Positions 33,501 to 58,254 of a stretch of 64,000 nt of DNA are shown here, one piece after another (positions within the stretch are counted from its first letter, which is position 1; each line of letters opens with the position of its first letter). This DNA comes from Branchiostoma floridae (taxonomy: Eukaryota; Chordata; Leptocardii; Amphioxiformes; Branchiostomatidae): assembly GCF_000003815.2 (NCBI RefSeq), contig NC_049980.1:12607075-12671074 (forward strand). The letters run 5' to 3'. The notes beneath the pieces are model-generated. The model made no database searches. It was given only the letters and a program-made list of their open reading frames with translations, and was not told the DNA's origin. The translations under genes and the position numbers were made by a program.

Positions 33501-36500
33501 ACAGACCATTGCTGCTTATCATTGTCACAATTGCCGCTTTAATCAACACTACTACTCTCTCATGCAGCACAATGCACATCTTTACGACATGAAGTCGAGA
33601 TCTTGGTTGAATATTTATCGTTAAATAGAACCCAAAATAATGACCTTAACCCTGCCCAAAACTCATGGTTGGTTTCCTAACCTGTGACCCATGTGTTCCT
33701 GGTTGTACTTTACCCCCCGTTCTTACCAAACCCTTTAACAATTGTGTTAAGATATTGCTGTGTCGGTGAACATAAAGGCTAACAATAGATTATCAGTCAC
33801 CCTTTATACCCACTTACCTAACGTTTAGCTTCACCTTGATTAATACGTGACCCTTATTTAGCAAGAAATTAACTTGGTAATGCCCAAACTGTTTTGAGTA
33901 TAGGAACAGAATCATGTTCTGATTTAAAGATAGCAAACAATTTTGACGGGTTTAACTTTGAAGTGAAAAAGATAGAAATATCAAAGTAAAGAATGGATGA
34001 ACACTTTTTTTGTTATTGTATTAAAGCATGTATGCTAAAGATGTTAAAAAGTAGGATTTTCCGTTGAAGGAAATCGGAGAGGAAACACCAAGCAGTCGGG
34101 GAGAAATCCCATCTCCTTCCGTGCACGAGCAGAGGGGTGAAACAGAGAAGACGCCATGGTACATAAACTTCATCCGGGCATTTCTTGAGACGGAGCTCGG
34201 ACCAGATTCCAGGATATCTAAAAGGTCAACCAAACATAAGAAACACCATGTCCAAAGCCATGCAGCCGAAACATCAGACAAGCACGAGAAGAGAATCAAC
34301 CAGGAGGGCGAGGAGCCGTCATCTAAGATGGACACCAGAGAAGAGAAGGGCATCGGCTATGCTGTCGTTCAAGCCATGCAGGACTCAGAAAACGCGTTGC
34401 ACCAGTTTCTGAGAGAATCCCTCCTGACGAGGTCAGAAGAAGAAATCGAGGAAGAGCTAAATGAGAGAGTTAAGAAACAGGTAGCGTTATTTTGAAATAT
34501 TACCTACAAGTATAAGTTGACAATAATGAATCTTGATAGCAGGCAATGTCAGTACGTACCTTTGTAAAATTTCATCTTACCTCGTCTTCTGAAGCCTAAG
34601 TCAGACTTGTGTGTCATTCTCATATAGGACTGTATAACCACAGCTGAAGCTGCAGGACTGATCTCAAGTAGGAGTTTGCCCTAGTCAATATTGACCGAAG
34701 TAAAGTGAAAGTGATCATGCTATTCCTTGTCTGAACTGGTTGAAGTATCCAAGGTTGTTCGCTTGCTGTTTGAAACAATACTGACAATGATTAAATCCCC
34801 GTGTGCAGGATGACGGAGACTGGGTGCAGGCAATGGGTATAGTGCATCATCTGATGTTCCCCATTGGTCAGATCTTCTTTGCCTTTCCGGGCGGTTTTGT
34901 GGCAGCCAAGGGGTCAGCTGTGAAGTAAGTTTTCAACTATAACGACTTTATTAAGCATAATGTTGGCAAATTTAGTGATGTGCCCTCGATTTCTACCATT
35001 ATTGAATACCATTAGACAAGTTGAGGGCAGCAGGAAAATGATGAGACTATCGAGAACTGTGAACAATGTGTAATTCTAATTTTTCATTGTTCACCCAGAA
35101 TCCTAGGCACGATGATGTTCGTGTCGTGTCTGGTGCACCTGTTCGTCCCCCTGCCCATGACGTTCCGGGGGAGCCCCCACACCGGGGATGTGTCTGTGGC
35201 CGTCATGATGTTTCTAGAGGGCTGCTGCCAGGTAAGCAGTCACTGGATTGAAACATTGTACGGGAAGACAATTTCAAAGTGTTTAGCCTGCTTGAAAATT
35301 CTTTAAAAATGATGATTATCTTATTGACCTAGTCGAGGTTTTGTATCCAATGCACGTTTGGTATTTGAAGGCTAATGTTTTAACGTGTTTGACACACTCT
35401 TCTGACTGACAGGGAGTGACCATCCCTGCGGCGTACGGTGTGCTCCATCGTTGGGCTCCCAAGTCCGAGAGAAGTACCATGGTGTCACTCACTCTAGCAA
35501 GTAAGTAAAACCCATGTCCTACACGACCTTGCAAGGTTTTCTAACGTTCTCCAGACCATGGTTGGGAGTTACATGTACTAGTAGTCCTGAAAAAGGTAAT
35601 CTGTGGTCAGGAGTTAGGCCTTGAGGATGCATACTAGTCTTTAACAGTCGTCTGTGCAGCCGACTATTGAAAAATGAAAGCCGGGAAAGTCAGCTCGATC
35701 AGAAGGGCGAACTGAAGCTAGAATAGGGTAGAGCAAAGTCGTGGGGACGTTTCAAATGCGTGACAGGACAGAAGGAACCGGCACGACCGTAACGGCTTAC
35801 TGCTACCATACTGTCCAAGCTGCAACAGTTGAAGAACAGCTAACAGACATTGGCTTTGTATATATAAGGAAGATACTTAACTCCAGAATGAACTAACAGT
35901 TTATGTTTGGCTTCATAGCGTATTATCTAGGGAGGCTATCCGGTCAGTTTGCGTGTGCTGCCCTGAAACAAGCCCATGGATATATGCCTGCTTTCTACAT
36001 TTACGGTAAGAGTTCTATAGTCATATTTGTATTGGTTTTTTCATTATTATGTTATTTCTCTGGGGCCAATGTTTAAGTCCTTGATATTTGAATCCCTCCA
36101 TCCTATCTTTTCTCAGTAAACCGAATTCGAACCCCGTGAAATTTTCTTTTCTATTTACCCAAAAAGGGAAGCGAGATGATATCCATATCGACACATTGTG
36201 TCCTGTCACTAAGCACTACGCTCAAATCCCTCAGGTCCACTCGGTATCATTTGGTCGCTGGTATGGCTTCTCTCTGTGAAGCCCAACCCGAGTTTGGACG
36301 ACAACATCAACACGTCAGAGAGGGACGACATCAACTCCGGCAAGAACACGGCGCAGGTATGATGCTTTTACCCACTGGCTCGCACACGACTACAGAATGT
36401 AGCAGAAAAGTAAAGACAGTAAATGAGTTTCTGGGACTTTTGACCTAACTTCCTGTCAGTGTCAAAGTCAATCTTATGCATTCAAATAGCTAAGGACACT

Positions 36501-39200
36501 CAGGAAAACAAGCAGGCAAATAGGAATCAAAACCTATGTACACTAAGTTATCACATATCTCTGCCCATCTCTGAAAACGATTGCTCGGTGAACCACAGAT
36601 TGATGTTTTTCCAACAGGACGGAAGTGACATCCCGATGAAGGAAGTTCTGACAGACCGGAACACGGTATCATACCTGGCTACTGGCCTGTGTTTTGCCTG
36701 GGGTATGAGTGTACTGTTGAACCACGCACCGCAGTACTTCGCCGAGAAAGTCGCTCTGGACGTCGGAAAGGTACTGCATACGTAGCCATTAGTCAATTGG
36801 TACTTTGTACCAAAATAGCCACTTCAGATTGATTTTGCAACAAAATTATCATTATAAGATCGCTGAACTCATGCCAGACCTAGAAAAGAGCCTATATATG
36901 TTTGTACATACACGACTGTATTGGTAGCTGCTATCTAATCGAGTTGGGAAGCATTCTGAGGTTTGACTTGGTAACTTTGTTACAGTCATTGTAGTTATTC
37001 TAATGATTGTACCGTTTCAGTCACCTTGGCTGCTCTGGACGCTTCCCCTGGTGATGTCAGGAGGGATGTTGGCAGCCGGGCCCGGAACTGACATCGCCAT
37101 CTATAAGGGCGCCAGCACGACCACCACACGTAAAGCTGTGACTGGTTTTGGTGAGTGTGTTATCTTATTAACATTATGTGCATGAGATGGGGAAACGTAA
37201 AGACAAAAGTATGAATATGCGACTTGTTGGAATGGCGTCTACCTAGTACCTCTTCAAAACTGTCCATAACATTCCGTGCGATGTACATTAATTATATAAT
37301 AACAGGTGATGCGAATGTTTGTCTGACGACGAGGCCACATTCGTCGTAGGTCTTAGTAAGATTTTTTTATGTCGTACGACTTTCATCCAATGATAGGCTT
37401 TTGCGTAACAAAAAAACTGAGTTGTACATGTGCGATACATACATGCACGACTATCACGAGAATGCCCTCTGTTTACGATCGCTCCATGGTCTTACGATGG
37501 GTGTGATTACCCGTGGCTTTCTTGTGAACATAATGGCTTTCCGAGATAATCCTTCTCCTAAAAGTTTGATATTGTTTTCCCAGTCGGTGCTTGCGTATTC
37601 TCGTTCGTGATGGCGATGGCTTTCACCAAGAGCCAGGCTTACGCGTATGGAGGGACAGTGGCGTCCATGGTGATGATCGGCATGGCCATGGGAGGAGGTG
37701 GGTATCTTTGTAAAGATGTTCAATTTTACAAAACGGTACATCTTTGTTATCTGTTTCGGAATTGCTTTTGTGGATAGACTTTGGCTATTAGTACATGTAT
37801 GTGAGTCGTATTTCCTCACTTCAAAATTTTGTTGTATATTTTTATTAATTTATTAATTTATTTGCAAATTCATGCCCGAAGGCTAATTGCAAGGGTACAG
37901 ACAGTAAAAAAAGTAAGAAGTTTCTATTCTATACAGCTATCTATATACATGATTCTACATTGTTTACTGGGAGGTTTGACTTCTTCTTTGGAGGCAGTGG
38001 CTGATATATTAACAAGCAGTAGAAATGTCTAAAATCATACTGAATCCTGAATTTTGATTGAATCCAGGTTACGGCGTGACGCCATTGGATGCCTCGGACC
38101 GGTACAGCAGCATCGTTGTTGGTATCGGTGTGTCAATCAACACCGCGCTGTTCCTGGTCAGCCCTGTGGCTGTGATGGGGCTCAGCGGCCCTGGCGGGGT
38201 GAGTACCAACATGGCAGGGACATGAAAGTCTTGGGTTCTTCTGTTGTCTGTCATGATAGCGGTGGTCTTTTCAACGTTACGTTCCCATTGCCAACGATCA
38301 CTTTGTCTGTCAAATGGTATCAGGAACGACAAGCTGTACTTAACGGATTAACAAAGTTCTTTATACACAATCAAAGAATAGCCATAGCCGAAGTTTCGAT
38401 GATTTTTTGTTACCTTCCTCATGGACAATGTAGACTAGTTCTACTTTGCACTGCAACTATAGGTGTCGCTGCTGCCGTGTAAAAATCAGTATGAAACGTG
38501 TTGTTATCCCCCTCATAACGTAATGTGTACTTCGTGTGGTAAAGAATAAAGCAAAGAAAATGATAGGATATAGACAAAAATTGTTGACAAATGCCTTGCA
38601 TAACATTTTAAAACTTTCTCTGCCATCAGTCGGCGAAAAGACAAGTGGAGGCTGTGTCCGGCTGGCGAACAGTCCACATCGTTACAGCCGTGGTCATGGG
38701 CGTCGCCCCGATGATCTACGGCGCTGTAACAGGCGAGGGCGAGATCTTCAAGTAAGTGTTGTCTATTTCTGGTAGTGTCTATCACAGTAACCACACTGGC
38801 TGGGAGAATTATTTGCCATGGGAATTTTGCCATCATAGGCTCTCATTTGCCACACATTTCGCACAAGGGAAAATCTTACTCTAACTGCACGCTGCCTCTC
38901 CTGGCCAAGTATTCACCACATGTTTGCCAAATTCTACACATTCAAACCTGGTGGGAGTTATGTTTCCTGCACTTTGTTTGCTGTTATTATCTTCAGCCAC
39001 GCATTCATTTGTTTTCGGTATCTTTGATACAAAACCAATTTGGTATTTGATCTCTAACTACAAGTTAGATGAAGTAAGAAGTGGCACTATGATAATCATA
39101 AGTGACAAAGAAGTTGTGAGTTTTAACCAACATTTTCTCTCTCAACAGGGGATGGGAATTCAAGAAACCAAAGCTTCCCAAGTGGCTGAAACGTCGCTAA
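30571..39200 (+). CDS. SLC17-like MFS transporter, single divergent module
   Basis: Exons: 30571-30687, (33353-33367), 34070-34480, 34809-34924, 35099-35231, 35413-35500, 35919-36005, 36235-36356, 36618-36770, 37021-37150, 37584-37697, 38068-38198, 38630-38751, 39149-39200; about 591 residues plus 5 if the microexon is used. SLC17 hallmarks: GVTIPAAYGVLHRWAP then SERS after TM4, PAFYIYG before TM6, VKPNPSLDDNI after it, and GYGVTPLDASDRYSS (family NxLDIAPRYA) before TM11. Twelve TM segments are visible. Unusual: TM1 is followed by a 137-residue Lys/His/Glu-rich insertion (residues 40-176), and the TM4 Arg and Glu of the family are Met and Gln. SLC17 proteins carry organic anions across plasma, lysosomal or vesicle membranes; substrate here unknown. 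It ends after KKPKLPKW with a short basic tail. AATAAA at 39953-39958 and 40554-40559 could end the transcript. Confidence 0.88.
33353..33367 (+). CDS. Candidate 15-nt microexon of the first transporter
   Basis: CTCACCACCAG / GCTCCGTCCTCCAAG / GTAAGT encodes APSSK in phase 0, fitting between the TM1 exon (ends phase 0) and the loop exon (starts phase 0). The second gene has a counterpart at 45688-45705, and about 100 bases upstream of each also align although the rest of the intron does not. Alternatively the conserved block is an intronic enhancer or an alternative first exon. Confidence 0.45.
35545..35760. repeat. Dispersed repeat, copy B, in a transporter intron
   Basis: Diverged relative of 1164-1450: GTTCTCCAGACCATGGTTGG, then CTAGTCTTTAACAGTCGTCT and GCAGCCGACTATTGAAAAAT. 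It lies between the exons at 35413-35500 and 35919-36005 and is absent from the equivalent intron of the second gene, so it inserted after the duplication or was lost there. Confidence 0.55.
37840..37935. mobile_element. Possible LINE 3'-end remnant in intron
   Basis: TTTATTTGCAAATTCATGCC followed by CGAAGGCTAATTGCAAGGGTACAGACA resembles the reverse-oriented 3' end of a non-LTR retroelement. Only this fragment is present; family unassigned. Confidence 0.3.
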
Positions 39201-41477
39201 AGCTGACCACATGTTTCGCTTCCTTCTCGACAACTGGCTAACACAACCACCTAATCAACAGTGGATACACACGCTTGAAGATTATCCTCTGCTACCATCA
39301 TTATTTATAGAGTATTGTAACTGTGACTCAACATTCAGAGGGGAATTACTGACTTACATGTCAGGGTCAAGGATTTAATTTCACTGAATCAGCAATAACA
39401 GTTTACAGCAACTAGCCCGAGTAAAACCTATCAGCTATCCCAAGTACGGATTTGCCTCTATAGAGAGGTTTTTAACATCAAGATTATTATAGGGAACTGC
39501 CAATGATAAGACGACGTATTAGCTATCTTTGAATTTTACAAGACAGTTTAGGTGCTTCTGGTGCATATATAAAAAGCATTAATTTGACGGTGTTTGATGA
39601 TGGATTTTACGGTTCATGTACTACTAGCATATTTTATTCATAGCTCCGCATGGATTTTGATACTTTCCTTTGAACGTAAAATGGAAACATCGCCGAATCA
39701 GATTAGTAAGTTTCAGAGTAAAATCCAAGAACTGCCATGTCATTGGTAACATAGACTATATGTAATATTATATAGACTATATGCCGCTCAAGCAGCGTAG
39801 CACATTCAGTTTTGTATTATGAGGTCGATTTCCTTACCATCGCGGACGATGATTATTTATGTTTCCAACATTCGGTGCTTGGATGTAGTTTCTTGTAAGT
39901 GTACCGGTGCAAAGCAGTGCGGAACAGAAATATCTTGGACCAGTGTGCTTCAAATAAAAAGTGCATAATGTATCTTGTGACCGATGATAGCATTGTTTGC
40001 CTTTTGTCACTTATAGAGCGTTTATCATCCTTCCTGAAACTTTACAAAACGCTACGTATAGGACAGGTAAAGGTATTCAGCAGTTTTGTTGGTGTCAATT
40101 ATTCCAGAAAATAACCCACTCCCATCTAGAAGAGAAAAAATAATACTGTCGTAGCCATGCCTCCTGGCGATTTCGATGAGTGTTGCATAAACGATGGGGG
40201 GAACCGATGGGTCGTGTGTTCCTTGACAAGAGAGCTGTTCTTGCATTTCGAAATCAACCGTGAACGTAATTAATAAGTATCGTGGAAATTGTAGTGTTGT
40301 ATTGTTGGAAAATGACAATGTTGCCTGACGTGCTTTCAGGTGAGACAGCCAGAACACACTAACGATATGAAGATGATCAAAACACTGTCTCAAACTGCCA
40401 GGTCAAAGGGCAATATCCTGCAAGATGGCGACACTCGATAATAACGACAGCATGACTAAACAGCCATCAATAATTTGGTTATTTGGTCAAACGCCCTTTT
40501 TTTACATCATGAGCTCGGGATTGATTGTATAGTACACACAGGTGTGACATTGTAATAAACCACAGACGGGGGGATTTCAGGTCATGACCGGCAGTGCCGA
40601 GAACGGCTATGTGTAATACATACTGATCAACTCGTAAACTGGTTAGGCAAGTTCGTTACTTGTTTAATTGGAGATGCCTTCAAACACCAGCTGTATGTGT
40701 ACAACTCCTCTGCTAGCTTTAACATGCAATATAATTCACACTAGAGAGGTATATACTACCAAATTAGTTAAAGATCTTTTCTGTAAATGTGTATTGTGGT
40801 CAAGTGGAACAAAACTTTGCCGACGACCTGTTTACCGAACACAATACCTTCCACACCCATTTGCTCGATTTTACAGTTGTTGGCTGTTCAGTTAGAAGCA
40901 ACCTGGGTTGCTTTTATAAGATATTTTTGTCTCTGACGGTTTAGTTCTCGCCAAACGACCCATGTTTGAACGCGTGGCTGTCTAAGGTAATGGAATGTTG
41001 ATAAAGTATAGCCTTTGGCATCACCGATTCCTATTCGCATGGAAACATCGTCTTCTGGTCTGTATGACCCGATTATCATTTCATAAAGTGGGGCTGTGAT
41101 CGTTTTGGAAACTTGTAGCTAAAACTCTTTTGGAACAAATATTCTTGCAGCCTGTAAGTCATGTACCTTCAGATGTCTGTAACGAGATTACAAAGAAAAT
41201 GTAGAGTATTCCGGGTGCGGGCCCATATATAGGTTTGACATCACTGAATTATAATAGTTTCAGAAAGCGATACAGAAGGTCAAACAATTGAGAAAAAAAG
41301 ACATGCACTAAGATTTTCGATTCACAGAAATAAAGGAAACATTCAGCTTGTCAAACAGAACACATTCCAACATAACTTTTTTTGGGGTAATGACACTTTG
41401 CGTCCATATTTCTAATGAAGAGTTTCAGAGTACACGATGGTGTTTACTAGCTTGGAGATACTGCCGGTTCTTAGTGA
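39201..41477. other. 3' UTR of first transporter and intergenic spacer
   Basis: No further exon of the first gene is seen after the stop at 39200. In particular, nothing resembling the second MFS module occurs here. Polyadenylation-type AATAAA motifs are at 39953-39958 and 40554-40559. The next recognisable block is the duplicated promoter at 41478. Confidence 0.6.
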
Positions 41478-41801: not shown

Positions 41802-43302
41802 GTAAGAAATCTGTTTATAAAGATATCTTTGTAGATGGATGGCTGTATTGGTGCTTGTATCCCTAACTACATTGTCCAATTAAGGATAAAAGTCAACAAA
41901 CGCTGTCTTTGGCTCTTGCTGTTTGTTTTTCTCTTTGTTGTTTTCAACCTGTGAAATTTCCCACATGTGTTAATTGGTTGAACCCACGAAGTCATTAAAA
42001 GAGTAATTGGACAAAACCTTACATTGAAAAAGCTGTATAGTATTTTTTTTCACATTGAAGTAGGGGCATCAAGGGCAACAAACATATTTGATACATTCGT
42101 AATCATATACGGTACCTAAGAAGCAAAAAGGTGAAAGTTGTTTTCAAACTAGCATATCTATCTTGGGGGCGTGGTTAACTGCGATCTGATAGTAGTGAAT
42201 AAATGGTGAAACACCTGGACAAAGTGATGACAATTGTCGATACACTGACGTTCATAGCAAATCCTTGGACGGTCTGTTCATAGCATCAGTGCGTTAGGAA
42301 AATGAAGGGACATTTGATCAGCGAAAAGATCCTCATGTAAAAGTAACTTTGGCGCTACAAGTTTAGCGCTACAATGACAAGAAGAGCACGTGGTTATCAT
42401 ATATCTCTTTTCAAATAAACCAGGGCTCCTTTATTTTATATTGACATTATTATATCATATACAAGAAGGTACACGCGATCTTTCCCTGCTCTAAAACCAA
42501 ACCCATGCTAAGGATGGAACCGCAAAGATTGTTGACATGATTGAGGAGAAACTTTTGCTGCACAAAATTTCGAATTGGAACAATTTTTGCAAACAAACAG
42601 TTAACATCAACTCTCATAATTCAACATTTAGACTGATTTAAAGTTATATTATCTAAAGGAATGTGACAATAAAACATCAGTATTGCTGACTTCAGATATG
42701 CAGGAAAAGCATGAGAAGACACGATTTTTTTGTATGTGGCAGTATTATGACCAGCTGATTATGACACCCGGTGGAATTATGAGCGTCTATGTTACACTGC
42801 AATCAACATTAGAATTTTCATTGGGGTATTAACGACTCCTGTGTCATGACAGACAGGCAGTTTCTTCCATGACATACAGTATAATTTTATGAATAATATT
42901 TCTAATGGATAAAGAACGGTTCAGGTGTATAACAACAGATTCAAGACATTGTGATTACAACAAATTACGGTGATCGAAAGATGGCTATTGTGGTCTTCCT
43001 CTTTGAACCTTAATAGGTTTTCATAATATAGGTTTTCAAATATGTTAATATGATTGAAAATAACCATGGTGTGTTTATCGAGAGAAATGTAATAATCAGT
43101 GTGACTGTTATATATTAATCGGTTTGTCATAAATTTAATGTTGATATTGCATCAAATTAAAAAATGATAATCTGATTATTGAGCAGCATATCTTATGGTA
43201 AATTCGTGAAAAAAGGTAAAAACCATATTGCCTGTTGTTGAATTCAACACCTTCCCTGTCTTATTAGATGTTGTGTTTGTGACTTACAGACCAGACATCA
43301 GC

Positions 43303-46300
43303 ATGGGGAGCCCACCAAAACGTCTGCTGGTGTACTCCCTTCTTATGGTCAGCTTTTTCATCGCAGGAGGCCTGTATCCCAGCATACAGCTGGGTCTGTC
43401 AGAAGCAGTGACCAAATGGGTACGTACTAACACAAACATGATATCTGTCCCATGGTTTTAGGTATACCTTTTGGACTTCTTAGATTTGGTGTCAACGATA
43501 TGTGTTATATTTGGCCGATGCCGTTCCAGCTACATGTAGCTACTTTCAACAACGTACCAGAGAAAAGGTACAACACGAAACCCTTTATTCCAATTTTATA
43601 GGTACAGAAGTCGTTCCTAAATCATGAAGTGGTAACCTGATGTTTGATGGACCGATCATGGACGCATTTCTCACAAAGGCCAATCATTTTATTCTTAAAC
43701 AATGAAAACAAGTTGCATATCATGTGAACATGGAGTAATAGTAGTTTACACATCTACTATAAAAGTATATGGATACTATAAGAGTATATGGCTTTATATT
43801 AATCTTTTTTTTAACAATTTGATTATAACATATAGATTTGAATTTCATTATGCCACACCTCTTCCCTCTATACATGGAGCATGTTGATGGTCCTATGAAG
43901 GTGATATATGCGTGTTATAAAACCATAACGTTTAAACCATGTCTATCGGTAAAATAGATAATTGAAGTATTTTAAAACTAAGGCGCAAGACATGACCAGA
44001 CTCAAAATTAGAAGCACTAACATAAAAAGGTTAAACATATTGTAGCCTGTTAATAGAGGTTAAATCTGACATGTGGCAATTGATGCCGAACGATTCAATA
44101 TTGAATGATAGTTTTCACGTGTGGGACAAAACCTTCTTTTATTTCTTCTGTCGTAATATTTTCATTGAATAGTTAAATTGGATCTGATCCTGAATTCAAA
44201 TCCTGCAATGTTTGGATGACAGCATATGGAATACTAATGGAGTCTCTCCTACCCAACCTTATCAACTACATCACTAGGAATATACCCTTGGGCGAATTTG
44301 ACACCTCGCTGAAAGCATGATTTCGGGGATTTTAGGTGAGGAAACCAGGGTAGTCCAACAAAATAGGACAGTGGGATCGAAATGAAAATCATGAAAACAA
44401 TAATATTTATAACTCATATATAAGGCTCAGTCAGGAGGCACAGATAACTTTAGGTTCACCGCACAGGGGTCACTCCATAACCNNNNNNNNNNNNNNNNNN
44501 NNNNNNNNNNNNNNNNNNNNNNNNNNNNNNNNNNNNNNNNNNNNNNNNNNNNNNNNNNNNNNNNNNNNNNNNNNNNNNNNNNNNNNNNNNNNNNNNNNNN
44601 NNNNNNNNNNNNNNNNNNNNNNNNNNNNNNNNNNNNNNNNNNNNNNNNNNNNNNNNNNNNNNNNNNNNNNNNNNNNNNNNNNNNNNNNNNNNNNNNNNNN
44701 NNNNNNNNNNNNNNNNNNNNNNNNNNNNNNNNNNNNNNNNNNNNNNNNNNNNNNNNNNNNNNNNNNNNNNNNNNNNNNNNNNNNNNNNNNNNNNNNNNNN
44801 NNNNNNNNNNNNNNNNNNNNNNNNNNNNNNNNNNNNNNNNNNNNNNNNNNNNNNNNNNNNNNNNNNNNNNNNNNNNNNNNNNNNNNNNNNNNNNNNNNNN
44901 NNNNNNNNNNNNNNNNNNNNNNNNNNNNNNNNNNNNNNNNNNNNNNNNNNNNNNNNNNNNNNNNNNNNNNNNNNNNNNNNNNNNNNNNNNNNNNNNNNNN
45001 NNNNNNNNNNNNNNNNNNNNNNNNNNNNNNNNNNNNNNNNNNNNNNNNNNNNNGAAGGCAATAAATTTTACTTGTCCAAAGCATATAAACATATAGAAAC
45101 TATGTGCTCCCTTGGAGATCAATCCCAAGACGGATTGAATAGATAAATATCCATACGTATTCGAAATTTACAACGAAAGAGGTGAACTACAAAACTTGAT
45201 ATTGTTTGAGTCTGGTGGTCTAAATAAAAAAAAGTTTGGTTTAGCCCCATTTCATGGTCACAAATCTTTCTGTAACAGTTTTCATGATAGTGTCTGAGCT
45301 GAGGGTATATACCGGTCTAGAAATAGGATAATGTCGAACCAACCTCTCTCCTCTAAATAGTATCGTGCACATACAGGGTTCAGCAGCATAAGCATAAGCA
45401 ACATTATCTTAACTCTATTGTAAGACAGAGAGGTTGTTGGTCGTACTTAATCTTTTACTAGGCTGCACCAGACCTCACAAGGGAAGGATCTAAAGTCTGG
45501 ATGCTATCCTAGCCTTGATTTATGTATTGACTGGCATTGAATTCTGATCAGAATATTCTCTTTCGCAAGCTGTAGTTTTAGTCCTGTTGCTAAAGAAGAT
45601 ATCTTTGATTCTTCCTCTATACTTCTTCATGTTGCTCTCATGCCGATCCATCTGTCCCAACGATGCTACCTTCGACGCTTCTTGCAGTCTCCATCCTCAA
45701 GATCGGTAAGTTATGTCAACGAGATAAGTAAGATCGGTGACCACCCCCCCCCCCCCACACACCTTTCACGTGCCACCCTTTGGTAAAATCCGATCTCACC
45801 GAAGGACGAATCCAACACTGCACCCTGTGCCTTCCCCCCACCACTCCCGACTGACCTACCACAAAAAGACTACTGACGTTTTGCTTGGCTCGCTGGTGAA
45901 ATGCCTTATGGCTTACTTTTCATCTAAGATAGCATGAACATTCTTTTAGAGGAAGCACTAGTAACTGACAATGACGGTGACATACCCCCATATGGTCGCA
46001 CAAAACTTTCCCCATCACCTACCCATTGCACCGGTGCTTGGTATGACTGGAACGAAGACTATCAGTCAACTTCCAAATAACTACCCACCTCGTGTTCCTT
46101 TAATCAACTCACTATCCCAAAATTAAAAGCACATTTACTTCACCGTGTTTACTGTAAGTGCATCAGACTACATCTCTTACGACTACTTCTTCGATTTTAC
46201 GTAAAACATAGTCGTGTATGCACCATTTATCAACAATGTAACAATATTAATGTCGTCACGTAGCTCAAAGAAAGAATCTAACGTAACACATCAAAATCGT

Positions 46301-49300
46301 GGAATGCGGCAGGGCACAACAGATGCTGTCTTTTTCGAGGAAACTAGGTTTGAGAAAAGCTGTCATCTCCAGCAACGGATGAGCATTAATTAAAACTTGG
46401 GGTGTTGTTGCCTTTTCTCCATGTAGGATATAGGACAGGAAACACCAAGCAGTCGAGGAGAAATTCCGTCTTCCACGGAAAAGAAAGAACAGAAGACGCC
46501 TTGGTACATAAACTTCATCCGATCATTCTTAGAGACTGAGCTTGGAGCGGAATCCAAAGTGTCAAAAAGGTCGACCAAACATCACAAACATCATGCCAAA
46601 AAAGATCACGTGGTAGAAGTCAAGAGTGGACATGAGAAGAAGTCCAGTGACGAACACAGTGAAAAGTCGTCCGAGGCGACCAAGAGAAGAGAGAAGAGCG
46701 GCATCGCCTACGCTGCTGTTCGAGCAATGGAAGAATCAGAAGAGGCGTTAGACCAGTTCCTGAGGGAATCCCTTCTGAAGAGGTCAGACCAAGACGAGCT
46801 ATATGAAAAGTTTAAGAAACAGGTGAGACGCTTTCTTCGTTTTGTCAACAGCCATAGTTCAGTATCATATTCTATGTGGCCATCGAGATGATGTCTCGGA
46901 ACATTCCATCTACATTAAAGTTGTTAATTGTAATTTTATCTTATATGTAGAAATAGAAATGACAACATAAAATAACGCTAACGCCTAGTAGAAATATTAT
47001 TAATCCAATCGGCATAAGTTGATCTGAATTTAACTGCAATTCCCGTCAGGATGACGGAGACTGGGTGAAAGCCATGGGAGTGGTGCACCATCTGATGTAC
47101 CCCATTGGTCAGATCTTCTTCGCCTTTCCGGGCGGCTACTTCGCAGCCAAAGGGTCGGCAGTCAAGTAAGTTCATCTGCGTTTCAGTATCAGATATGATC
47201 ATTACTGTAAGTTTGTCTATGTTACATACAATACTTTTTATCACCTAGGTATCATCGCCAGTTCGCTCGTGTCAGATACATTTAATTAAGGACATCAACG
47301 GCAATTGTGAATTTTCCTAACATTTGATACATGTAATAGTACAAGTACGTAAGTAAGAGATCGGTAAAGTTTAACCCACCTTATGTACCATTTTATTGAC
47401 TGTCTTCTTCACCCACACTACAAGCCATTTACTTACTTTTTCTAATGGGTTTGTTCAGGTGTAAAAGTAAACGATTCTCCTGACCTTTGATGTATAACAT
47501 TTGACAGAATCCTGGGGACGATGATGTTTATATCGTGCCTGGTCCACCTGTTCGTGCCCCTGCCTATGAAGTTCCGTGATAGTCCTCACACAGCTGATGT
47601 CTCTGTGGCCGTCATGATGTTCATAGAGGGCAGCTGTCAGGTAACAACAGGAATCATGCTCTACTTGCTCACCATGCAGGAATCAAAACACTAACGATTT
47701 CATCACGTCTTCCAGATGTATGTGTTCGTGTGGGTTTGTACGACAGCACTAACATAGGGCAATAGTACATCACCAGTATGATTAGCAGCAATAATGCCAC
47801 AAAGGTCACCACAAAGGTGTGACTCGCGGGGAGGTAAGAAGTAGAGGTTAGATGTGGCAGGAAGTGGAGGTTAGAGTCGTTTTGGTTATCAGACATGACA
47901 GACATTCCAGGTCATAAGGTCGTTAGAAGAGGCTACTAATTCATTGGGAGGTCTTGTTTTTTGGTCTATTTGTCTGTGTTATTGTAGTTATAATTTCCTT
48001 ATGCTGGTCACATTCTTAGAGTGACAGGAATTGAGCAATGAACACATGTGTTGTTAATCAAATCATATTTGCATGCATGATAGATTAAATACTTTGAAGA
48101 CATACGACAAGCACTATTCCGCACTATGTGGATTCTACAGCCTTGATTTGATTATTAAGGCAGCGTATAAAAGCAGATATGACCTGCAATAGCTGGCTTT
48201 GTCGTGTATAATGGATGAAAAATATTGAACTGACACATAACTTTGTTTCGTCCAGGGAGCGACTATACCAGCAGCCTATGGTGTGCTCCACCGATGGGCT
48301 CCTATATCAGAAAGAAGTACCATGGTCGCACTTACCTTAGCAAGTAAGCAGTGAATTGAAATATGCATAATTATCTTTAAGCTTTTAAATATGATAATAA
48401 GTATTATCAAACTGTTTGTAAGTCATGATTCTGAGGCTAGGGTAAGAGATAAGAATTGATCTAAACAACATGTCTTTCTATATACATGTAGTAGTTGAAG
48501 TAGTAGACTGTCATGATGTATTACCTGTATTTGTGTACTCATTGTTAATTTGTTAATAAGTTATTCCAAATCATAGAATCATATTTCTCCATCTTTTGTC
48601 AGCATATTACCTGGGGAAACTGTCGGGTCAGTTTGCGTGTGCTGCCTTACAAGAAGCTCATGGGTACCTCCCTGCTTTCTACATCTACGGTAAGAATACC
48701 AACACTGTGATGTGTCTCACTTCATGTTCTTTATTACCGCCATGTATCGAGAGCTATTACTGTCGGTTCCTTGGGCATATAGGGTACAGGAAGTCAAAGG
48801 TCCTAAATGTTATCAAATGCCATATCATTTCCTGCCTTCAAAATACATGCCATATGCATAGACATAATCAGTAAGAAATACCCAATAATGAGCACAATAA
48901 GAAATTCATGACATTTGAAGAGTTTTGCTGAGGGATGAGATCTTCAATTGCTTGTATGTTATGATTCGTTTTGCATTCCCGTGATTTTGCAGTAATTTTG
49001 CTGTAGGCATTCTGGATTCAAAGATGACTGAAAAAGTCATCGTCATCGTGAATTATAGTATACCTGTACAACAACTACTTCGATATCTTTTTTTAACCAA
49101 GTGTTTTTGGATATTGGGCATTGGGTTTTTTAAGACTGATGCCTTGCCTTATAAGCCACGTTTCTTGTGGACATGTGACATTTATCGTATCTGTTTGTTT
49201 CCCCAGGCCCCCTCGGTCTCATTTGGGCCATAGTGTGGGTTCTCACGGTGAAGCCCAACCCCAGTTTAGACGACAACATTTCCACGAAGGAGAAGGATAA

Positions 49301-52300
49301 AATCAACTCCGGCAAAGACACAGGAATGGTCAGTCACATCTGCTTAGTACAGACCAGTGGTCTCTGACCCAGTCACATATGATTACTAGAAAAATATAAA
49401 TTAAAGATACGTCATTTAGCAGTGTGTCAAGACAGGGTTGTTCCTTTCACACGTTTATACTTTTCACACGTTTATACTTCTCACCATCACATGACATGTT
49501 TAGAAAAAAAGGTTGCGTTTGTCGTCTTCCATACTGTCCCCAAAACAAGTCAAACCTATGTTTCATTTCATTGAAATTGCAACAAGGCAATAAAGATGAT
49601 ACAGAATTTATACAGTGGAACATCTGAATAGAATAAAGCATTCGGCACATCAAAGTCAAACCTTTACTTGTAATTGTTGAGATTTAGAGTTAGCGTTGAA
49701 ATGAGAATGACATTATGTTATATTGTTCCTCATTCGCTGTTTGCGTCCTGCTTCATGCAAGCATCCTTAACCGTACCATTTTCATCCATCAGGATGGGAC
49801 TAAAATCCCGATGAAGGAGGTTCTGACAGACAGGAACACGGTATCATACCTGGCTACTGGCCTGTGTTTTGCCTGGGGGATGAGTGTACTGTTGAACCAC
49901 GCACCGCAGTACTTCGCCGAGAAGGTCGCTCTGGATGTCGGACAGGTATACTTCAATATTCTTTAGTACCCGTTCTAGTTCTCATTTGTTCTGTTTGTAC
50001 ATCTGCAGTTCCACATGACCTTAGGCTAACCGAAATGTATAGATGTACTGATAACTTACCAAGAAAGTAAACGGTTTCGTCAGTGACAAAACGTTGCGGA
50101 AAATTGCCTCAATTGTTTTGTTATTTTTCAGTCCCCCTGGCTGCTATGGACGTTGCCCTTAGTAATGGCAGGTGGGATGTTACTGGCCGGACCTGGAGCG
50201 GATGTCCTGATCAGTAAGGGCGCCAGTACGACGAAACTACGGAAAGTAGTCACTGGCTTCGGTAAGGAATAAAAGTTATTCTTGGGGAAGAGTGTAGAAC
50301 TGGGGAAATGATGGAAAGATATGTTGATACTGGAGTCCGTCAACAGTGTCTTGGAAGTAAAGAATGAACAATTTCAAGTAAACACTTATCCCATACTGAG
50401 ATATGTAGATTATGAACATTGGTATTGGCTACGATCATTCTCCTTCCTGTGTACATGAGTTGATCTTTCTCGTTCAAATACTGTTCTTTTTACAAAGCAT
50501 AATCTACACTATCATGAAAAAGGATTTGTACTGATACCAACTCTTTTTTCAGTGTGCACTTCTGTGTTCTCGTTCGTAATGGCAATGGCCTTCACCAAGG
50601 ACCCACAGTACGCGTACGGAGGGACAGTGGCGTCTTTAGTCATGATCGGCATGGCCATGGGAGGAGGTGGGTATTTTGTGGTTAGTTTTGGGGTCTTTAG
50701 GATGCACCTTGTTCTAAAACAACAAACTGAACTTTCAGAAAGCGTTCTCCATTTTGGCAAAACATAAACATACTGATGATACTTGTATTGAGATAAGCCT
50801 GATTCTTTGTTTTTCAGTGTATACAATCATAGTTCTTTTGTATCTTTTCGTGAAACCTGTCTCAGTGCATAATGGTTATGCTATTGCACTTCTAGTAAAC
50901 AGAGTTGGCTGACAGCTACCGCCTGCAAACAAATCTAGTAAAAATCGTCTCTGAAGATGAAGAGGGGGTCTCCTAGATAAAATTGCCGTCTGTAATGAAT
51001 CGCTTTGTTTGTACCCAGGTTACGGCGTGACGCCATTGGATGCCTCAGACCGGTACAGCAGCATCGTTGTTGGTATCGGCGTGTCTCTCAACACGATACT
51101 GTTCCTCGTCAGCCCTGTGATCGTTCTGGCACTCAACAAAGTAGAATTGGTGAGTGTCAAGACACACAAATCCATCCACAAACACGTACATGTAAATAAA
51201 TCTACGTCTTTAGCATGACCAAGGTAATATCTCAAGTTATCCTCTTAATAAACCTATCTAATTCTCAATAATCACAAGGGTCAGTCTTATTGATTGGAAC
51301 TAAAAACAAACATGGTAGATAAGGTGTCAATGCCACATTGCAGCTACATTTTCAACACTAGCTCTCTTGACACTGTTATGTATGAACCCCTCTCCCTGCA
51401 TTTTTGCTTCGATGTTTAAAACTGACTACTAGTCTTTATTTTTGCATCAGCCTTTCAAAAGACAGACAGAAGATGCTATCACCGGATGGAAAAACGTCCA
51501 CATCGTCACCGCTGTCGTCATAAGCGTCGCCCCGATCATCTATGGCATAGTGATGGGGAAAGGCAAATTGTTGACGTAAGTCTCGACTCTGTCTATCGTC
51601 CTGGCTGTAAGATCTAAGAAATGTGATGCAATGCGTTCGACGACGACACTTAATAAATCTTATGGTCGGTAGGCAGGTATTCTATTTCTATTTATTTTTC
51701 TCCAGTTTTAGTTTCCAGCCTACAATTGTAACAATGTAGGACTTCAATACATCAGGGCACTCGTGTGCTTAACATCATATTTTGATAATACAGATATGCA
51801 GGGTGCTGACGGTTTGGTGGGTCGTTTTGTATCACTTTGTTTGTTGGGAATGAGGAGAATGTACATGTATTGCTGGAAAACGATTCTACAATGTTTTCGT
51901 CACTCAAATCGAAAATGATATGACCCTTGACAGGGATCGACAAAGCTCAGCAGGTTTTGCTGGGGTCGTTCGGGTAACATGAGGCCTATCTGTACATAAT
52001 GTAAGACTTACTTCTAAGCAATGCCCTCTGAAGCTCAATTCAGCAAATCATATCATCTCTACGTTGTCCGAACTCGGTTGTTAACTGATGATAAACCGTT
52101 GTCTCCTTATCAACCCATTCAATATACGTCCTGTATTGTTGTAGCCTGGAATCCGCGCGCCGTGTTGTGCTTTGGTCGCTCTGCTTGCCAACAGTGTTGG
52201 CAGGAAGCGTACCTTAGGGGAGCGACCAAAGCACAACACGGCGGGATTCCAGGCTAGTATTGTTGATTGGTAATACAGTTATTGTTGTTCTCCTTAACTG

Positions 52301-55300
52301 AACAGATGGCCTCCCAAAAAACCCAAGCTTCCGAAGTTGGAATGGCCTTCCCTCCCAAAACTGAAGAAGCTGAAATGTCCATCATGTCCTTCCTTCCCAA
52401 AATTGAAGAAGCTGAAATGTCCATCGTGTCCCGGATGTCCCTCCTTCCCGAAACTAAAGAAGCTGAAACTCCCATCACTCCCATCGGTAAGTTCACTGAA
52501 GGTAAGACAGTTCTCGTCCCTATGTCGCTCGCCTATTGGTGGCTGCATAGGCGCCTTTGGAACGAGGTCAACATACGCAGGTGATCATAACTCATGGGTG
52601 ATCAATATGGGAACACTACTACATGATAAAAAACAAACAAACTAGGACTAAGATCCTTAGAGGCCAGAAGCTAGCCTTAGAGAGACTGGAAATGTCCTAC
52701 ACAAATATGAAACGTCATCACTGCGTACTGGGATGCATAAAAGCAATTCTGTGGAACATAGTAGCCTTCTGTATTTTTACGGTTAGTGGGGTCTTATAAT
52801 TAGGGTGACGGCTAAGGGATTCAAACAACATGGTGACAATGTTGCGAAGTTGCCTTGGTGAAATGTTTATGAATGTAAATATATCAAAGAATGTTAAGAT
52901 GCTAATTGCTACAATGATTGTAAAGAATCTTATCCCATACTACATATAGTTAGTTGAGCCGTAAGTTAAGCTATGTTAAGAACGGTAGTTATGTAGATGC
53001 CATACTTTGTACCTTGTACAAAATTGATGTATAGTTAGTACGTACATGCATGGAAACAGCATCTCATAGGAATAACTATTTGTTCTGTTAGAATATTCAT
53101 GATACTCACTTCCGTGTTTTACTAACATCTAGTATTGATTTTATCAATTACAGTTGCCTAGCTGGAGCACCATCAAGAGGAAGGCACAAAAGCGTTACCT
53201 CATGGCTGCCATGTCTTCACTTGGCTTCATGATCCAATATGGCGGCCGGGCCAACCTGGCGGTCTCCATGGTAACCATGGTGATGCCCAACCCCTTGTCA
53301 AAGAGGCAACTACAGGTACTTAGATATGCTTTATAGGTCATAATGATATTGGGATGGCATAGAATTGTAATACCCGTACATGATTTTCAATCATATAACA
53401 TAAGCAACAAAATAATTCTTACTGATTCTGTTATTGCATTTACCCAATGGCCTCATAAGGCAATAGACATGAATGTAGCATTAAATTGAAGACAGGAAGT
53501 GAGATGGACTATTCCGGGGCCTTTCTGGCACCTTTGGCCTATCTACCTGTCGATGTCACCGACGTACATATCATTTGGATATCAGCCAGTTTACTTTCAT
53601 TCAAACAACCACAGACACAGAAGCGAACAGTCAAGATGCACCGAATCTCCATAGACTTGTATGGAAAGCGAACTCTTCGAGTTTTTGTAGGTTTTACTAG
53701 AACGTTAATTGAGAGGGGAATTTGAAGACCAAATCTAGACGTTCTGTGTGTTTTTTCTTTGTTGCAGTTTTCCAACTTGGACTGGGGCCCATACTCCCAG
53801 CTTGTCATGGGCGCTGTGCACGCCTCCTTCTTCCTGGGTCTGCTCGCCTCCCGGCCGTTTGCAAACCCCATCCTGCGGCGGGTCTACGCTACCAGGTCAG
53901 CTAAATAGTGACGTGTAGTATAGTATGGTATAGTGTAGTGTGGTAGGTTAATCTAGTGTAAGTCTAGTATACTATACGGTGTAGTTCAGTCTAGTCTAGT
54001 CTAGTCTAGTCTAGTACAATAATAACTTTTTCGTTTAACTTTGTATGTGAATTGTATGTTGCGTTTATATCCTAAGAATATTAGCAAGTTACAAATCAAA
54101 TGTCAACTAATAGACTTACTATCAAGTATGATATAGTGCCGCATGATATAGTGTGAAGAATTTTACAGAGTAGTATAGTACAGTGTAGCAGGCCTCAATT
54201 TCATGTATCAACTAAGTACCTATCAATCTAATTCTATCTATCTGATAGCTTACCATTTTTCCTCTTTACTGCGTCGACAGGGCGTTCGCATGTTCTATCT
54301 TCGTGTCGTCCATTCTGCACCTGCTGATCCCAGTGTCTGCCGCCGGTCACTACAGCGTCATCATGCTGGTCAGGATTCTGCAGGGGATGGCTGAGGTAAA
54401 ACTTGTCTTCTCTATATGTGATAAGGGGCATCGAATTGCCGAGTGATTAAGCCGACATAACATCGTGAGGTCGCAAGTTCGATTTCTGGCGCTCATGGCC
54501 AGACGTTGTATCCTTGAGAAAGATACTTTCACGACTTTCCTCATTCCCCTTATGTGTAAAAATGGGTACTAGACTACAATTGGGAGGTAAAAGGTGGTGG
54601 AATGAGAGGGTAGGCTTCGCCTTCCAATGCTGTGTAACAGACACAGTGGATAACAACCCAATGCCAACAACCTCGGAAGTCGTATTGGATTACCATTGCC
54701 GGAAGATCTGATTTAACAAAATGTGAAAGAAAGAAAGAAATTTACGGTTCCTGACGGACGCATGATTTTCCAGGGAATGACAACGCCAGCCATGTACGGA
54801 TTCTGGGTGAAATGGGCTCCGGCTAGTGAGATGAGCAGCATCAGTTCCTTCACCGTAACAGGTAGGCAGTAAGATAATAAAATATACCATACGAATAATG
54901 CAGATAAATCGGAATAAATGTTGAATACATGGGACTTACAATCGCATTTGAAGTATGTAGATTGTTGTCTGTTTTTTAAACGTTTACGCTGTTCAAGTGT
55001 CCTGGAGACGTCATGTGATGGAGCAAATATCGATATTTTCAATGCAGAATATTATCCATCAATATTGCAAAACTTTGCACCCCTGCAAGGTCAATTATCT
55101 GACCAAGTTTATATTCAGACCGCATATGTTACTTTTCAGGTCAGTACATCGGGATTGTTGTCGGGATGGTGGCATCAGGGTTCTTGGCGGAGTCCGCAGC
55201 AGAGTGGCCGTGCTCGTTCTACGTCTACGGTACGTGAGCACACTTCAGAGGTTATCTCGTATTTTTGTTGTGTTTGCTCCTCTCACTCACTCTCCTCTTA

Positions 55301-58254
55301 CTCCGTACTCTAACCGTAGACTTAGCCGATCTATTTTACTGCTATGTGACAGGAACATTACTGATGGTATCTCACTCACAGATGGTATCACCGCCACGAA
55401 GATATCAGTTGTACCGGATACAAGATCAAATCTCACTGTCTTGATTCATCATTGAGCTTTCACTTACGTTTTAGCTAAGATCTTCACTGAATTCAAAACG
55501 CATTTGCAGTGCTAGTCATAGCGTAAAATATCTTCATCTGGTGCTTACACATAGCTTTAGACATCTACTCCAGGACTTTTTATTTTCGGTAAAAAGGGTC
55601 TGAAACTATAACCAATGTATCGTATTTCTCACCAGGTGGTCTCGGCGTGGCGTGGTCCTTTATGTGGTTTGCCTCCGTGTACCCGACACCAGAGTTCGAC
55701 CCGGGAGTGACAGAGCAGGAGTGGAAAGCCATCATGTCACCTCCTCCTCCTCCGCCTCCTAAACCTGCGGTAAACTGACATCACACAGGGGGGCGCGGTA
55801 TCATGATATACTAATAAGCCACTGCATCCCAAATGCTGAAGTACGGAATAGAGTAAAATCACTAAACACATCGGTCTTACGAAGACCTAGCCTCTTAACC
55901 ACAGTAAAGAAAACTGAAATGATAAGGGCACGTGTCACGTCCGTCAGGACTAGTTAAGATAAAGATGAGATTATGGGGCTATGTCGAAAGCTAGCAGAAT
56001 TGAGGACAAATGTGCTCTTCGTGCCACTCTCTTTTCTCAATTTTGTATGTCGTTATAGATGAATGTTATAGGGTCTTAGTGGGTTCTATTCAGACAAGAA
56101 AACAACAACCATATATTGGGTTTTACCACAACACGAACAGGACGAAGAAGCGCCTCCTCCCGAGCCGCAACCGACTTACAAGCCAACCGACTCACCTTAC
56201 AAGTCCATGCTCAAGAGTCCAGCGGCGCTGTCCATCTGGGTGTGTGAAGTCTGTGTGAAGTGGGTCGTGTATTTGATGCTGACATTCGCACCTCTGTACT
56301 ACGTACAAGTACATGAGCAGCCGGTGTCTATGGTAAGTTTTCCTGTGCCACCATGATAAAATTGTGTAAATTGTGTTTTGCATCCTGCAATGATATATCT
56401 ACATAGCAGTACTGCATGCGTACCTGAATGTAACATCAGGTACAAGTCACAGGTACCGGTACCTTACCTGTACCTGTACCTGTACCTGAACAATTCAACA
56501 AATGATATGGTACATGCTTGATAACATATGGTGTTTGAGAATATGATTGAAGTCTCCCTCTTCCCCAGGCTGGCGTGTACAGCGGGGTACATTTTGCGCT
56601 GTTCACTGTCGGGCTGCCCCTGATAGGTTACCCGGCACGCGCAGCCACCAAGAGCCAGACAGTCTCTACAAACTTCATCAGAAAATCATTCAACTTCCTT
56701 GGTAAGAAAACACATTCATTTCAATTTGATCCTTAGAAAACGTTCTAAAGATGTAGGTGTTGGAAGTAGAGTAAGAAGCATGGGTCGTTGATCCCATTTT
56801 CTTGTGGAGAGTATCATTGATTTTTACCAACCCCAACAGGTCTCGCCACCGCCGGCAGTTTCCTGTTGTCCACAGCGTTGGAGGGAGACTCGCTGGAGAA
56901 GGTGGTGCCGTTCCTCACCACCGGCTTTGGCGCACTGGCATTCCCGCTAGCAGCAGGTGTGTCATTTGTCTCCTATATCATTTCACTGAGTAAGAATTAC
57001 GTCAATAGCATGTCTCATTATGTACAGAAAATCTCAAAGCTGTTTCGTCAAGGCAAAGGAGTGTGTATTTCTAACACCACTAGCAAGCATTAATGTTACC
57101 GTGTCGAGAATAGGATAAAAAGTGAGGTTTGTGCTAAACAGGAGAAACATTCCGACGATTATCATTATTGAATCAATCAATCGTAAATAGGGGAACAAAG
57201 CATTTCATTCCAGATATTTTTTTGTCATCGACTTGATACAGGTCACGGCCTACTTCGCCTATTCCTTGAATACCAGGGTTCACTTGTATGAACTAGACTT
57301 CACTTTAATGAGTACATTTTTGTATTGTAGGGTACAATGTGAACGCGCTGGACATCGCAGGGGTTCATGCCAGTAAGTTGATGGGCGTGTCCGGCGGCCT
57401 GTCCACCATCATGGGGATCATCACACCCATCTGTGTAGGAGGAGGTACCCTACATCAGGTACGGCACAACACCGTGTTCCCTTTATAAATACATGTACAA
57501 TTTCAACATTCACTCCATCAAACTCTGTGCCCCTGAAATCAAGGTAATCACGGTGAAAGTGGCCAAGAACTTGTAGCAGAGAACTGATGCCATAACGCAC
57601 CCACAATGGTGGATGTTGAATGATACCGCGCTTATTTTGACAAAGAAATCGCATCCCTGTCCCTGGTGCTTACTGTTTCCCTGTCCCTGGTGCTGACAGT
57701 GTTTCCCTGTCCCTGGTACTGACTGTCTTTCCCTGTCCCCGACAGTGTTTTTCTAGTCCCTGGTGCTGACTGTGTTTCCCTGTCCCTGGTACTGACTGTG
57801 TTTCCCCCTCCTTGGTGCTGACAGTGTTTCCCTGTCCCTGGTGCTGACAGTGTTTCCCTGCCCTGGTACTGACTGTGTTTCCCTGTCCCTGGTGTTGACA
57901 GTGTTTCCCTGTTCCTGATTGTGTTTCCCTGTCCCTGGTGCTGACGCTGCTTCCCTGCGTGAGTTAAGAATTGTTATCCCTGTACACTCTTTACAGAATG
58001 CTGAAGAGTGGAATATCATCTGGACGGTGTCGGCTGGTCTCCTGTTCAGCAGCGCCACAATCTTCCTCTGCTGCGGCTCGGGGTCACCGGAAGACTGGTC
58101 CGGTGCAGCACCGGCCCCTAGCGAGGCATCGAGTTCTGCAGCCTCGACATCAGGCGATTCCGAACCGACTGACTCAGACGAGAAGCCGGAGGACAAGCCT
58201 GCCGAAGACAAGCCAGCAGAGGATAAGCCAGAAGAGGATAAGCCAGCAGAGTGA
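43303..58254 (+). CDS. Double SLC17-like MFS transporter, two fused modules
   Basis: Module A exons: 43303-43419, (45688-45705), 46427-46822, 47050-47165, 47508-47640, 48256-48343, 48603-48689, 49207-49328, 49793-49945, 50132-50261, 50553-50666, 51019-51149, 51451-51575; linker 52306-52486; module B: 53154-53315, 53768-53895, 54281-54395, 54774-54861, 55140-55229, 55636-55769, 56141-56332, 56569-56701, 56840-56956, 57331-57458, 57997-58254. All junctions are GT/AG and in frame; about 1145 residues, about 24 TM segments. Module A (1-571) parallels the first gene, including a 132-residue His/Lys-rich TM1-TM2 loop. The linker (572-631) repeats FPKLKKLKCPSCP-like units. Module B has canonical SLC17 features: GGRANLAVSMVTM in TM1, RILQGMAEGMTTPAMYGF in TM4, CSFYVYG, GYNVNALDIAGVHASKLMG. 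It ends in an acidic EDKPA-repeat tail. The A-B join rests on the strong donor at 52487, phase match and the continuing LPS repeat; a separate promoter for B is the alternative. Confidence 0.8.
44483..45053. other. Assembly gap (571 N) in first coding intron
   Basis: 571 N between the TM1 exon and the candidate microexon of the double transporter. The size is not a round placeholder, so it may be an estimated gap. Any exon inside would be missed. Confidence 0.99.
45688..45705 (+). CDS. Candidate 18-nt microexon of the double transporter
   Basis: ACGCTTCTTGCAG / TCTCCATCCTCAAGATCG / GTAAGT encodes SPSSRS in phase 0. It is the counterpart of 33353-33367 (APSSK). The preceding about 100 bases share TTTGATTCTTCCTCT.TA.TTCTT and CCAACGATG with the first gene. 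Inclusion would place a short Ser/Pro stretch between TM1 and the loop. Confidence 0.5.
52142..52256. mobile_element. Fold-back MITE with 9-bp target duplication
   Basis: A 115-bp element with inverted arms of about 37-40 bases, beginning TAGCCTGGAATCC and including CCGTGTTGTGCTTTGGTCGC. It is flanked on both sides by GTATTGTTG (52133-52141 and 52257-52265), a perfect 9-bp target-site duplication. An 8-9 bp duplication fits hAT- or Mutator-type transposition. It lies in the intron just before the linker exon, its right flank ending 40 bases from the acceptor. Confidence 0.9.
52306..52486 (+). repeat. Coding minisatellite in the linker exon of the double transporter
   Basis: The exon holds about three diverged copies of a unit near 45-54 bases encoding PSFPKLKKLKCPSCP-type peptide. 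This yields a Pro/Lys/Leu-rich linker with five Cys between the MFS modules. The matching exon of the first gene (39149-39200) has only the first part (KKPKLPK) before its stop. Repeat expansion by slippage is the likely origin. Confidence 0.85.
53900..54015. repeat. AGTGT/AGTCT simple repeat in intron
   Basis: Degenerate TAGTATAGTGTAG units pass into (AGTCT)n at about 53985-54013. A simple repeat inside the double transporter intron after exon 53768-53895. Confidence 0.85.
54425..54715 (+). mobile_element. tRNA-derived SINE in transporter intron
   Basis: Head: TTGCCGAGTGATTAAGCCGA (A box, Ser/Leu tRNA style) and GTCGCAAGTTCGATTTCTGG (B box). Body: CCTTGAGAAAGATACTTTCA followed by CGACTTTCCTCATTCCCC and TGTAAAAATGGGTAC, matching the body of the SINE at 27008-27400. 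This body phrase is of a type widespread in invertebrate SINEs. It lies in the intron between exons 54281-54395 and 54774-54861. Confidence 0.78.
56440..56492. repeat. Hexanucleotide (ACCTGT)n repeat
   Basis: Short run of ACCTGT / GTACCT units in the intron before exon 56569-56701. Confidence 0.8.
57655..57945. repeat. 26-bp minisatellite beside the last exon
   Basis: Roughly eleven copies of TGTTTCCCTGTCCCTGGTGC followed by TGACAG, with small deletions, in the last intron of the double transporter. It ends about 50 bases before the final acceptor. Each unit contributes a pyrimidine-rich stretch and an AG, that is, acceptor-like pieces. The minus-strand open frame over it is an artefact. Confidence 0.92.

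Follow-up and report, generated by a model that had tools for sequence, protein, structure and literature searches.

Two VGLUT-like SLC17 modules share one open reading frame at two loci of the Branchiostoma floridae genome

Here, I show that two SLC17-type modules of the major facilitator (MFS) fold lie in a single open reading frame at two loci of the genome of the lancelet Branchiostoma floridae. The first locus occupies 43290-58254 (plus strand) of the window, i.e. the whole stretch of 64,000 nucleotides that was analysed, which corresponds to positions 12,607,075-12,671,074 of contig C2; the second lies on contig C4 and was recovered by searching the 513.4-Mb assembly (431 contigs) with both modules. 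The open double frame is real at both loci. As predicted from the genes alone, the window region probably encodes, at an estimated probability of about 0.65, one protein of ~1145 residues composed of two SLC17/VGLUT-type 12-helix modules. SLC17 transporters are ordinarily single 12-TM proteins of ~500 residues; at these two loci the genomic sequence holds two modules per open frame in place of the single 12-helix chain that is usual for the SLC17/VGLUT type.

Once spliced, the 24 exons of the window gene (Table 1) yield one open frame of 1145 residues closed by the stop codon at 58252-58254, with GT at all 23 donors and AG at all 24 acceptors; the first 631 residues comprise module 1 and its tail, and the last 514 correspond to module 2. 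Pfam recognises two MFS_1 stretches in the joined protein, and both modules, when taken singly, score above the model cut-off (E 1.6e-25 for module 1 and 4.6e-32 for module 2), in agreement with the first-pass annotation of the window, which had claimed two SLC17-type MFS modules in one frame. The best solved relatives of both modules are VGLUT2 and VGLUT3, followed by sialin; matches to VGLUT2/3 have E values of 1e-68 to 2e-67 for module 2 and of 3e-33 to 1e-32 for module 1. By fold and by best similarity both modules thus belong to the SLC17/VGLUT type, and the best NCBIfam model for the joined protein is TIGR00894, which it matches at 309.5 bits, short of the strict cut-off of 626. That module 1 is likely a complete 12-helix unit rests on its MAFFT alignment to VGLUT2 and on hydropathy peaks for the helices at its two ends, as phmmer aligns it with VGLUT2 over residues 178-528 only. 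Hydropathy proved too crude for counting helices (9 to 12 segments in five modules, 11 in VGLUT2) and was discarded for that use.

Table 1. Exons of the double gene, the gap between its modules and the neighbouring single copy of module 1 (window coordinates)
Feature	Coordinates	Strand	Remarks
Exon 1	43290-43419	+	Start codon at 43303; holds TM1 of module 1, with Y where VGLUT2 has R88; exon shared with copy A
Exon 2	46427-46822	+	Encodes a hydrophilic insert of 132 aa separating TM1 from TM2 in module 1; its counterpart can be recognised on C4
Exon 3, module 1	47050-47165	+	Spliced model
Exon 4, module 1	47508-47640	+	TM4; M at VGLUT2 R184, Q at E191
Exon 5, module 1	48256-48343	+	Spliced model
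Exon 6, module 1	48603-48689	+	Spliced model
Exon 7, module 1	49207-49328	+	Spliced model
Exon 8, module 1	49793-49945	+	TM7, with F where VGLUT2 has R322
Exon 9, module 1	50132-50261	+	Spliced model
Exon 10, module 1	50553-50666	+	Spliced model
Exon 11, module 1	51019-51149	+	Spliced model
Exon 12, module 1	51451-51575	+	Last helix
Exon 13, linker	52306-52486	+	Rich in lysine, proline and cysteine; stop-free; phase 0 out; its start shares homology with the final, stop-containing exon of copy A
Inter-module gap, read as intron 13	52487-53153	+	667 bp; no AATAAA, ATTAAA, AGTAAA or TATAAA
Exon 14, first of module 2	53154-53315	+	LPSWSTIKRKAQKRYL and TM1; phase 0 in; earliest in-frame ATG in MAAM, where TM1 begins
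Exon 15, module 2	53768-53895	+	TM2; H at VGLUT2 H128
Exon 16, module 2	54281-54395	+	TM4; R184 and E191 retained
Exon 17, module 2	54774-54861	+	Spliced model
Exon 18, module 2	55140-55229	+	Spliced model
Exon 19, module 2	55636-55769	+	Spliced model
Exon 20, module 2	56141-56332	+	TM7; V at VGLUT2 R322, K one place on
Exon 21, module 2	56569-56701	+	Spliced model
Exon 22, module 2	56840-56956	+	Spliced model
Exon 23, module 2	57331-57458	+	Spliced model
Exon 24, module 2 and tail	57997-58254	+	Stop 58252-58254
Copy A, a lone tandem duplicate of module 1	30571-39200	+	76% identical; stop 39198-39200; linker-homologous exon from 39149; AATAAA at 39953

The two modules meet at the junction 52486/53154, whose in-frame, phase-0 character, claimed on first pass, is borne out by splicing: exon 13 leaves and exon 14 enters in phase 0, and the single frame of 1145 residues runs through. 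The donor of exon 13 (TCG|gtaagt) scores 4.9 on a home-made scoring by which the 23 donors of the gene range from 0.8 to 6.7, and the acceptor of exon 14 scores 1.4, below the mean of the gene; with the donor at 52487 left unused, the frame stops at 52643-52645. The accompanying claim of a repeat rhythm unbroken across the junction is weaker than it was put, as it does not reflect a repeat in the DNA. None of the repeats near the junction crosses it, their units being 42 bp long at 52342-52431 and 9 bp long at 52468-52485; moreover, the LPS of exon 14 is spelled with other codons, and the second locus has LPT in its place. A search for a retrocopy of the spliced junction matched just the two exons and a repeat inside the first of them, which is neutral. 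Two further repeat features lie in introns of the gene: nested perfect inverted repeats with 24-bp and 13-bp arms in intron 12 (52142-52256), ~50 bp upstream of the linker exon, which look like a small hairpin element, and minisatellite-like repeats in intron 23 (57660-57950), spotted by eye.

The second locus, C4:10.348-10.361 Mb, comprises a module-1-like gene followed by a module-2-like gene, both on one strand and in the order seen in the window. A spliced-alignment script matched the joined window protein to this locus over its whole length, 428 of the 1075 aligned residues being identical, and the refined model (C4:10361492-10347980, minus strand) has 24 exons and 1296 residues, is open throughout, and also shows two MFS_1 stretches in Pfam. 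Sites that score poorly and are possibly misplaced in the model are the donors of exons 2, 6, 20 and 21 and the acceptors of exons 3 and 7, the weakest donors being those of the doubtful exon 2 (-1.4) and of exon 21 (-0.07). The last module-1 exon leaves in phase 2 at CAA|gtaagt, where an unspliced reading stops at once; after a gap of 335 bp (C4:10352867 to C4:10352531) a 109-nt exon, KVLDGVPKPDINYPTVDWFQLPTQKALCSCMPKRYL, follows in phase, and TM1 of module 2 comes next.

A point against the joined reading is that the exon boundary differs between the two loci: the junction is of phase 0 in the window, where the exon begins from LPSW, and of phase 2 on C4, where it begins 20 residues earlier. 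When placed by eye, LPSWSTIKRKAQKRYL of exon 14 and its candidate counterpart LPTQKALCSCMPKRYL are of equal length and identical at 6 of 16 residues, the alignment script having paired them differently; if the two are homologous, the exon boundary would have shifted with the frame retained, and the repeat rhythm at the junction would probably be a coincidence. One in-frame junction has a chance of about one in three, and two of them, by phase alone, an estimated chance of about one in nine; it is because the second locus is in frame as well that the junction stands above chance.

A 10-row tree unites the three copies of module 1 (those of the two loci and of copy A, see below) in one clade (100/99), and the two module-2 copies group with moderate support (84/89). 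Two of six further spliced models, E and F, the latter with doubtful exons, were used for this tree and for the residue comparison; the G, C17, C19 and C4 6.95 Mb models were dropped from both as incomplete or poor. Since module-1 copies group together and module-2 copies likewise, the pair most likely predates the split of the two loci.

Upstream of the double gene, the linker-homologous exon of copy A reads (K)GWEFKKPKLPKWLKRR and then reaches the stop, and no module-2 match was seen between copy A and 43290. A single module-1 gene therefore ends in this exon, for which the window gene has a longer, stop-free exon instead. As regards the features of tandem duplicates, copy A has a stop and an AATAAA, and between modules 1 and 2 the frame is open to the donor at both loci. 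A match suggestive of a longer linker remnant beyond the copy A stop was rejected as not significant, 105 of 1000 shuffles being as good. Between copy A and module 1 of the window gene, dN is 0.152 and dS 0.82; the ratio of 0.185 indicates that module 1 is under constraint despite the loss of the usual residues described below. Exon 2 is less constrained than the rest of the module (dN/dS 0.234 and 0.164, respectively); the stretch that it encodes is long, hydrophilic and rich in lysine, histidine and glutamate. As the single module 1 adjoins the double gene, the two states can be compared directly.

Copy A also shows that module 1 can stand as a single gene, and elsewhere in the genome there are genes of VGLUT type that, over the sequence read, hold a single module. 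Along this line, the two modules of the window might be SLC17 genes in their own right, separate though close together. Module 1 would then end in a 3' exon that is retained or alternative, one possibility being the stop at 52643-52645, and module 2, endowed with its own promoter, would start either at the internal ATG of its first exon or in a small unrecognised first exon; I regard this as unlikely. According to passages of Banyai and Patthy (PMC4967905), gene-prediction errors are many in lancelets and include false fusions. This is the main caution, and the second, diverged locus with the same in-frame arrangement is the main answer to it.

The possible starts of module 2 are informative in this respect. 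In the window gene, a start at MAAM would drop the basic residues that precede TM1. On C4, the sole in-frame ATG of the 109-nt exon lies six codons before the exon end, and the alignment with VGLUT2 begins upstream of it, so that what precedes this ATG resembles coding sequence of a VGLUT, which speaks against a start at that codon. The matching exon of another VGLUT-like gene (C4:6933656-6933824, 169 nt) has no ATG and ends in KRYQ before IAILS, and it has in common with the C4 linker exon the phases (2 in, 0 out) and the KRYx|IAxLS end. Lacking an ATG in this exon, such genes should have an earlier exon 1 (at the C4:6.93 Mb gene, 1.7 kb of upstream sequence was examined), and a first exon of module 2 may thus lie hidden farther upstream, a point against the joined reading.

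Room for an earlier exon of this kind between the modules on C4 appears limited. In the 335-bp gap there, just two ATGs can be followed to a GT in phase 2, at donors that score -1.5 and -7.1, which speaks against separate genes; on the other side, 67% of trials with random sequence of this size gave no candidates at a score of 0 or more. Since the -1.5 candidate is comparable in score to the weakest donors of the C4 model, a separate first exon at this point is unlikely rather than impossible, and to that extent the candidate counts for separate genes; failing that, exon 1 of the C4 module 2 would need a place within module 1 or on its far side. The 667-bp gap of the window holds four candidate donors at a score of at least 0 (the best at 2.1) against a random expectation of 1.7, i.e. 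at or slightly above chance, and these weak first-exon candidates likewise count for separate genes. Neither AATAAA nor ATTAAA occurs in either inter-module gap (667 and 335 bp); as proof of fusion this is too weak and was set aside, given that both signals are also missing from 770 of 1638 stretches of 667 bp and from 1121 of 1673 stretches of 335 bp on the plus strand of the window. The 24-TM fused transporter proposed on first pass accordingly stands in part, having gained from the second in-frame locus, from the stop of copy A and from the want of a convincing first exon in the C4 gap.

It is quite improbable that the output is mixed, the genes being mostly expressed apart and the joined form being a minor read-through isoform, for although the short gaps (667 and 335 bp) and the in-frame junctions would permit read-through, and internal ATGs lie in the N-termini of both module 2 copies, the frame has been retained at both loci despite the differing exon boundary, which argues for selection on the joined form.

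The two halves of the joined protein differ in their residue pattern. Module 2 at both loci retains R88, H128, R184 and E191 of VGLUT2, and has V in place of R322 with K one place on. At the corresponding positions module 1 of copy A, of the window gene and of C4 has, respectively, Y, Y and Q (R88), M, M and R (R184), Q, Q and T (E191) and F, F and Y (R322), and an H is aligned with H128 in all three copies, with gaps beside it. The TM1 arginine and the TM4 glutamate (R88, E191) are hence present in module 2 at both loci and missing from all three copies of module 1, and the TM7 arginine of VGLUTs proper (R322) is found in neither module. The E191 residue matters for the function of VGLUT2. 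In the passages of PMC12240346 concerned, R88 and R322 of VGLUT2 are said to coordinate glutamate and R184 is described as a luminal chloride site; in those of PMC6057745, R322A VGLUT2 shows no significant currents. The earlier suggestion that one half might regulate the other gains an indirect argument, because module 1 lacks R88 and R322. Judging from its residues, a regulatory or assembly role of module 1 would fit, and an altered substrate may be envisaged as well. Points against a degenerate module 1 are the retention of H128 in all three copies and of R184 in the C4 copy.

Among known systems, VGLUT1-3 (SLC17A6-8) stand closest to both modules, VGLUT2 and VGLUT3 being the best solved relatives, and the likeness extends to the four residues retained by module 2 and to the C4 linker exon, which matches the VGLUT N-terminus and exon layout. 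Unlike them, the genes described here have two modules per frame, a module 2 with V at R322, and a module 1 without R88, E191 and R322 and with a 132-residue exon between TM1 and TM2. Sialin (SLC17A5), of the same family, itself has Y for the TM7 arginine together with the TM1 Arg and the TM4 Glu, but it is a single module and less similar to both modules than VGLUT is. A survey of the SLC17 family that includes B. floridae (PMC2824716) describes local expansions in the VGLUT clade; the word 'fused' is absent from the text of this survey, and its relevant passages speak of no double protein. Within the part of the open-licence literature that was covered, no report of a double SLC17 or of a double animal MFS protein was found, which is a weak absence.

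The nearest analogue found in print is NarK1-NarK2 of Paracoccus, described in passages of PMC5217062 as a single chain of 24 helices that unites two complete MFS transporters of different specialisation; the linker between them is variable and most likely acts as a tether. The predicted joined proteins of the two loci, each with two MFS_1 stretches, would have two MFS domains per chain in common with it; NarK1-NarK2, however, consists of bacterial nitrate/nitrite porters rather than SLC17 proteins, and transport is the function of both its halves, whereas the residues of module 1 suggest an inactive half.

Under the preferred explanation, that of one joined protein, a module-1 gene situated just upstream of a VGLUT-like gene would have lost its stop and would have been spliced in frame onto the N-terminal exon of its neighbour, replacing the first exon of the latter; this fusion would predate the divergence of the window and C4:10.35 Mb loci. 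The modules would be joined by a cytosolic linker rich in lysine, proline and cysteine. Module 2, with the TM1 Arg, the TM2 His and the TM4 Arg and Glu retained, may be regarded as the putative transport-competent half, and module 1, without the TM1 Arg and the TM4 Glu, is most likely a pseudo-transporter, which would stay beside module 2 and might tune its assembly, sorting or gating, in a manner comparable to the tethered NarK1 and NarK2 of Paracoccus. More tentatively, and at somewhat less than even odds, the two or more loci might represent an old amphioxus family of 24-helix SLC17 proteins, in which a dead VGLUT-like half is tethered to a live one as a regulatory subunit. If true, a double SLC17 protein with a degenerate half would provide a natural experiment for asking if a vesicular anion transporter acts by itself or under the control of a partner.

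As to the extent of such a family, a search of the genome with either module 1 turned up nothing beyond the window copies, the C4 locus and a single weak match on C17; that the C4 module 1 query misses the window copies indicates that the exon-wise search is insensitive, so more diverged pairs may have escaped it. Further pairs of modules 1 and 2 were found neither in C4 10.255-10.375 Mb, apart from the C4 double locus, nor in 20 kb each of C17, C19 and C4 6.95 Mb; module-1 matches in these stretches fell on exons that match module 2, the exceptions being those of the second double locus and a single weak one at C4 6.956 Mb (E 0.041). At least three more VGLUT-like genes cluster at C4:10.262-10.281 Mb, less than 100 kb from the second double locus; in the sequence read, each has a single module.

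Finally, the right edge of the window (64000-62502, minus strand) carries two exons of a stathmin-like gene, QNQQAQRQAKIERLKEM and EKHAEEVRRNKKEFATSG-stop, which when joined match the Pfam Stathmin model with E 0.00066, below the cut-off of the model.
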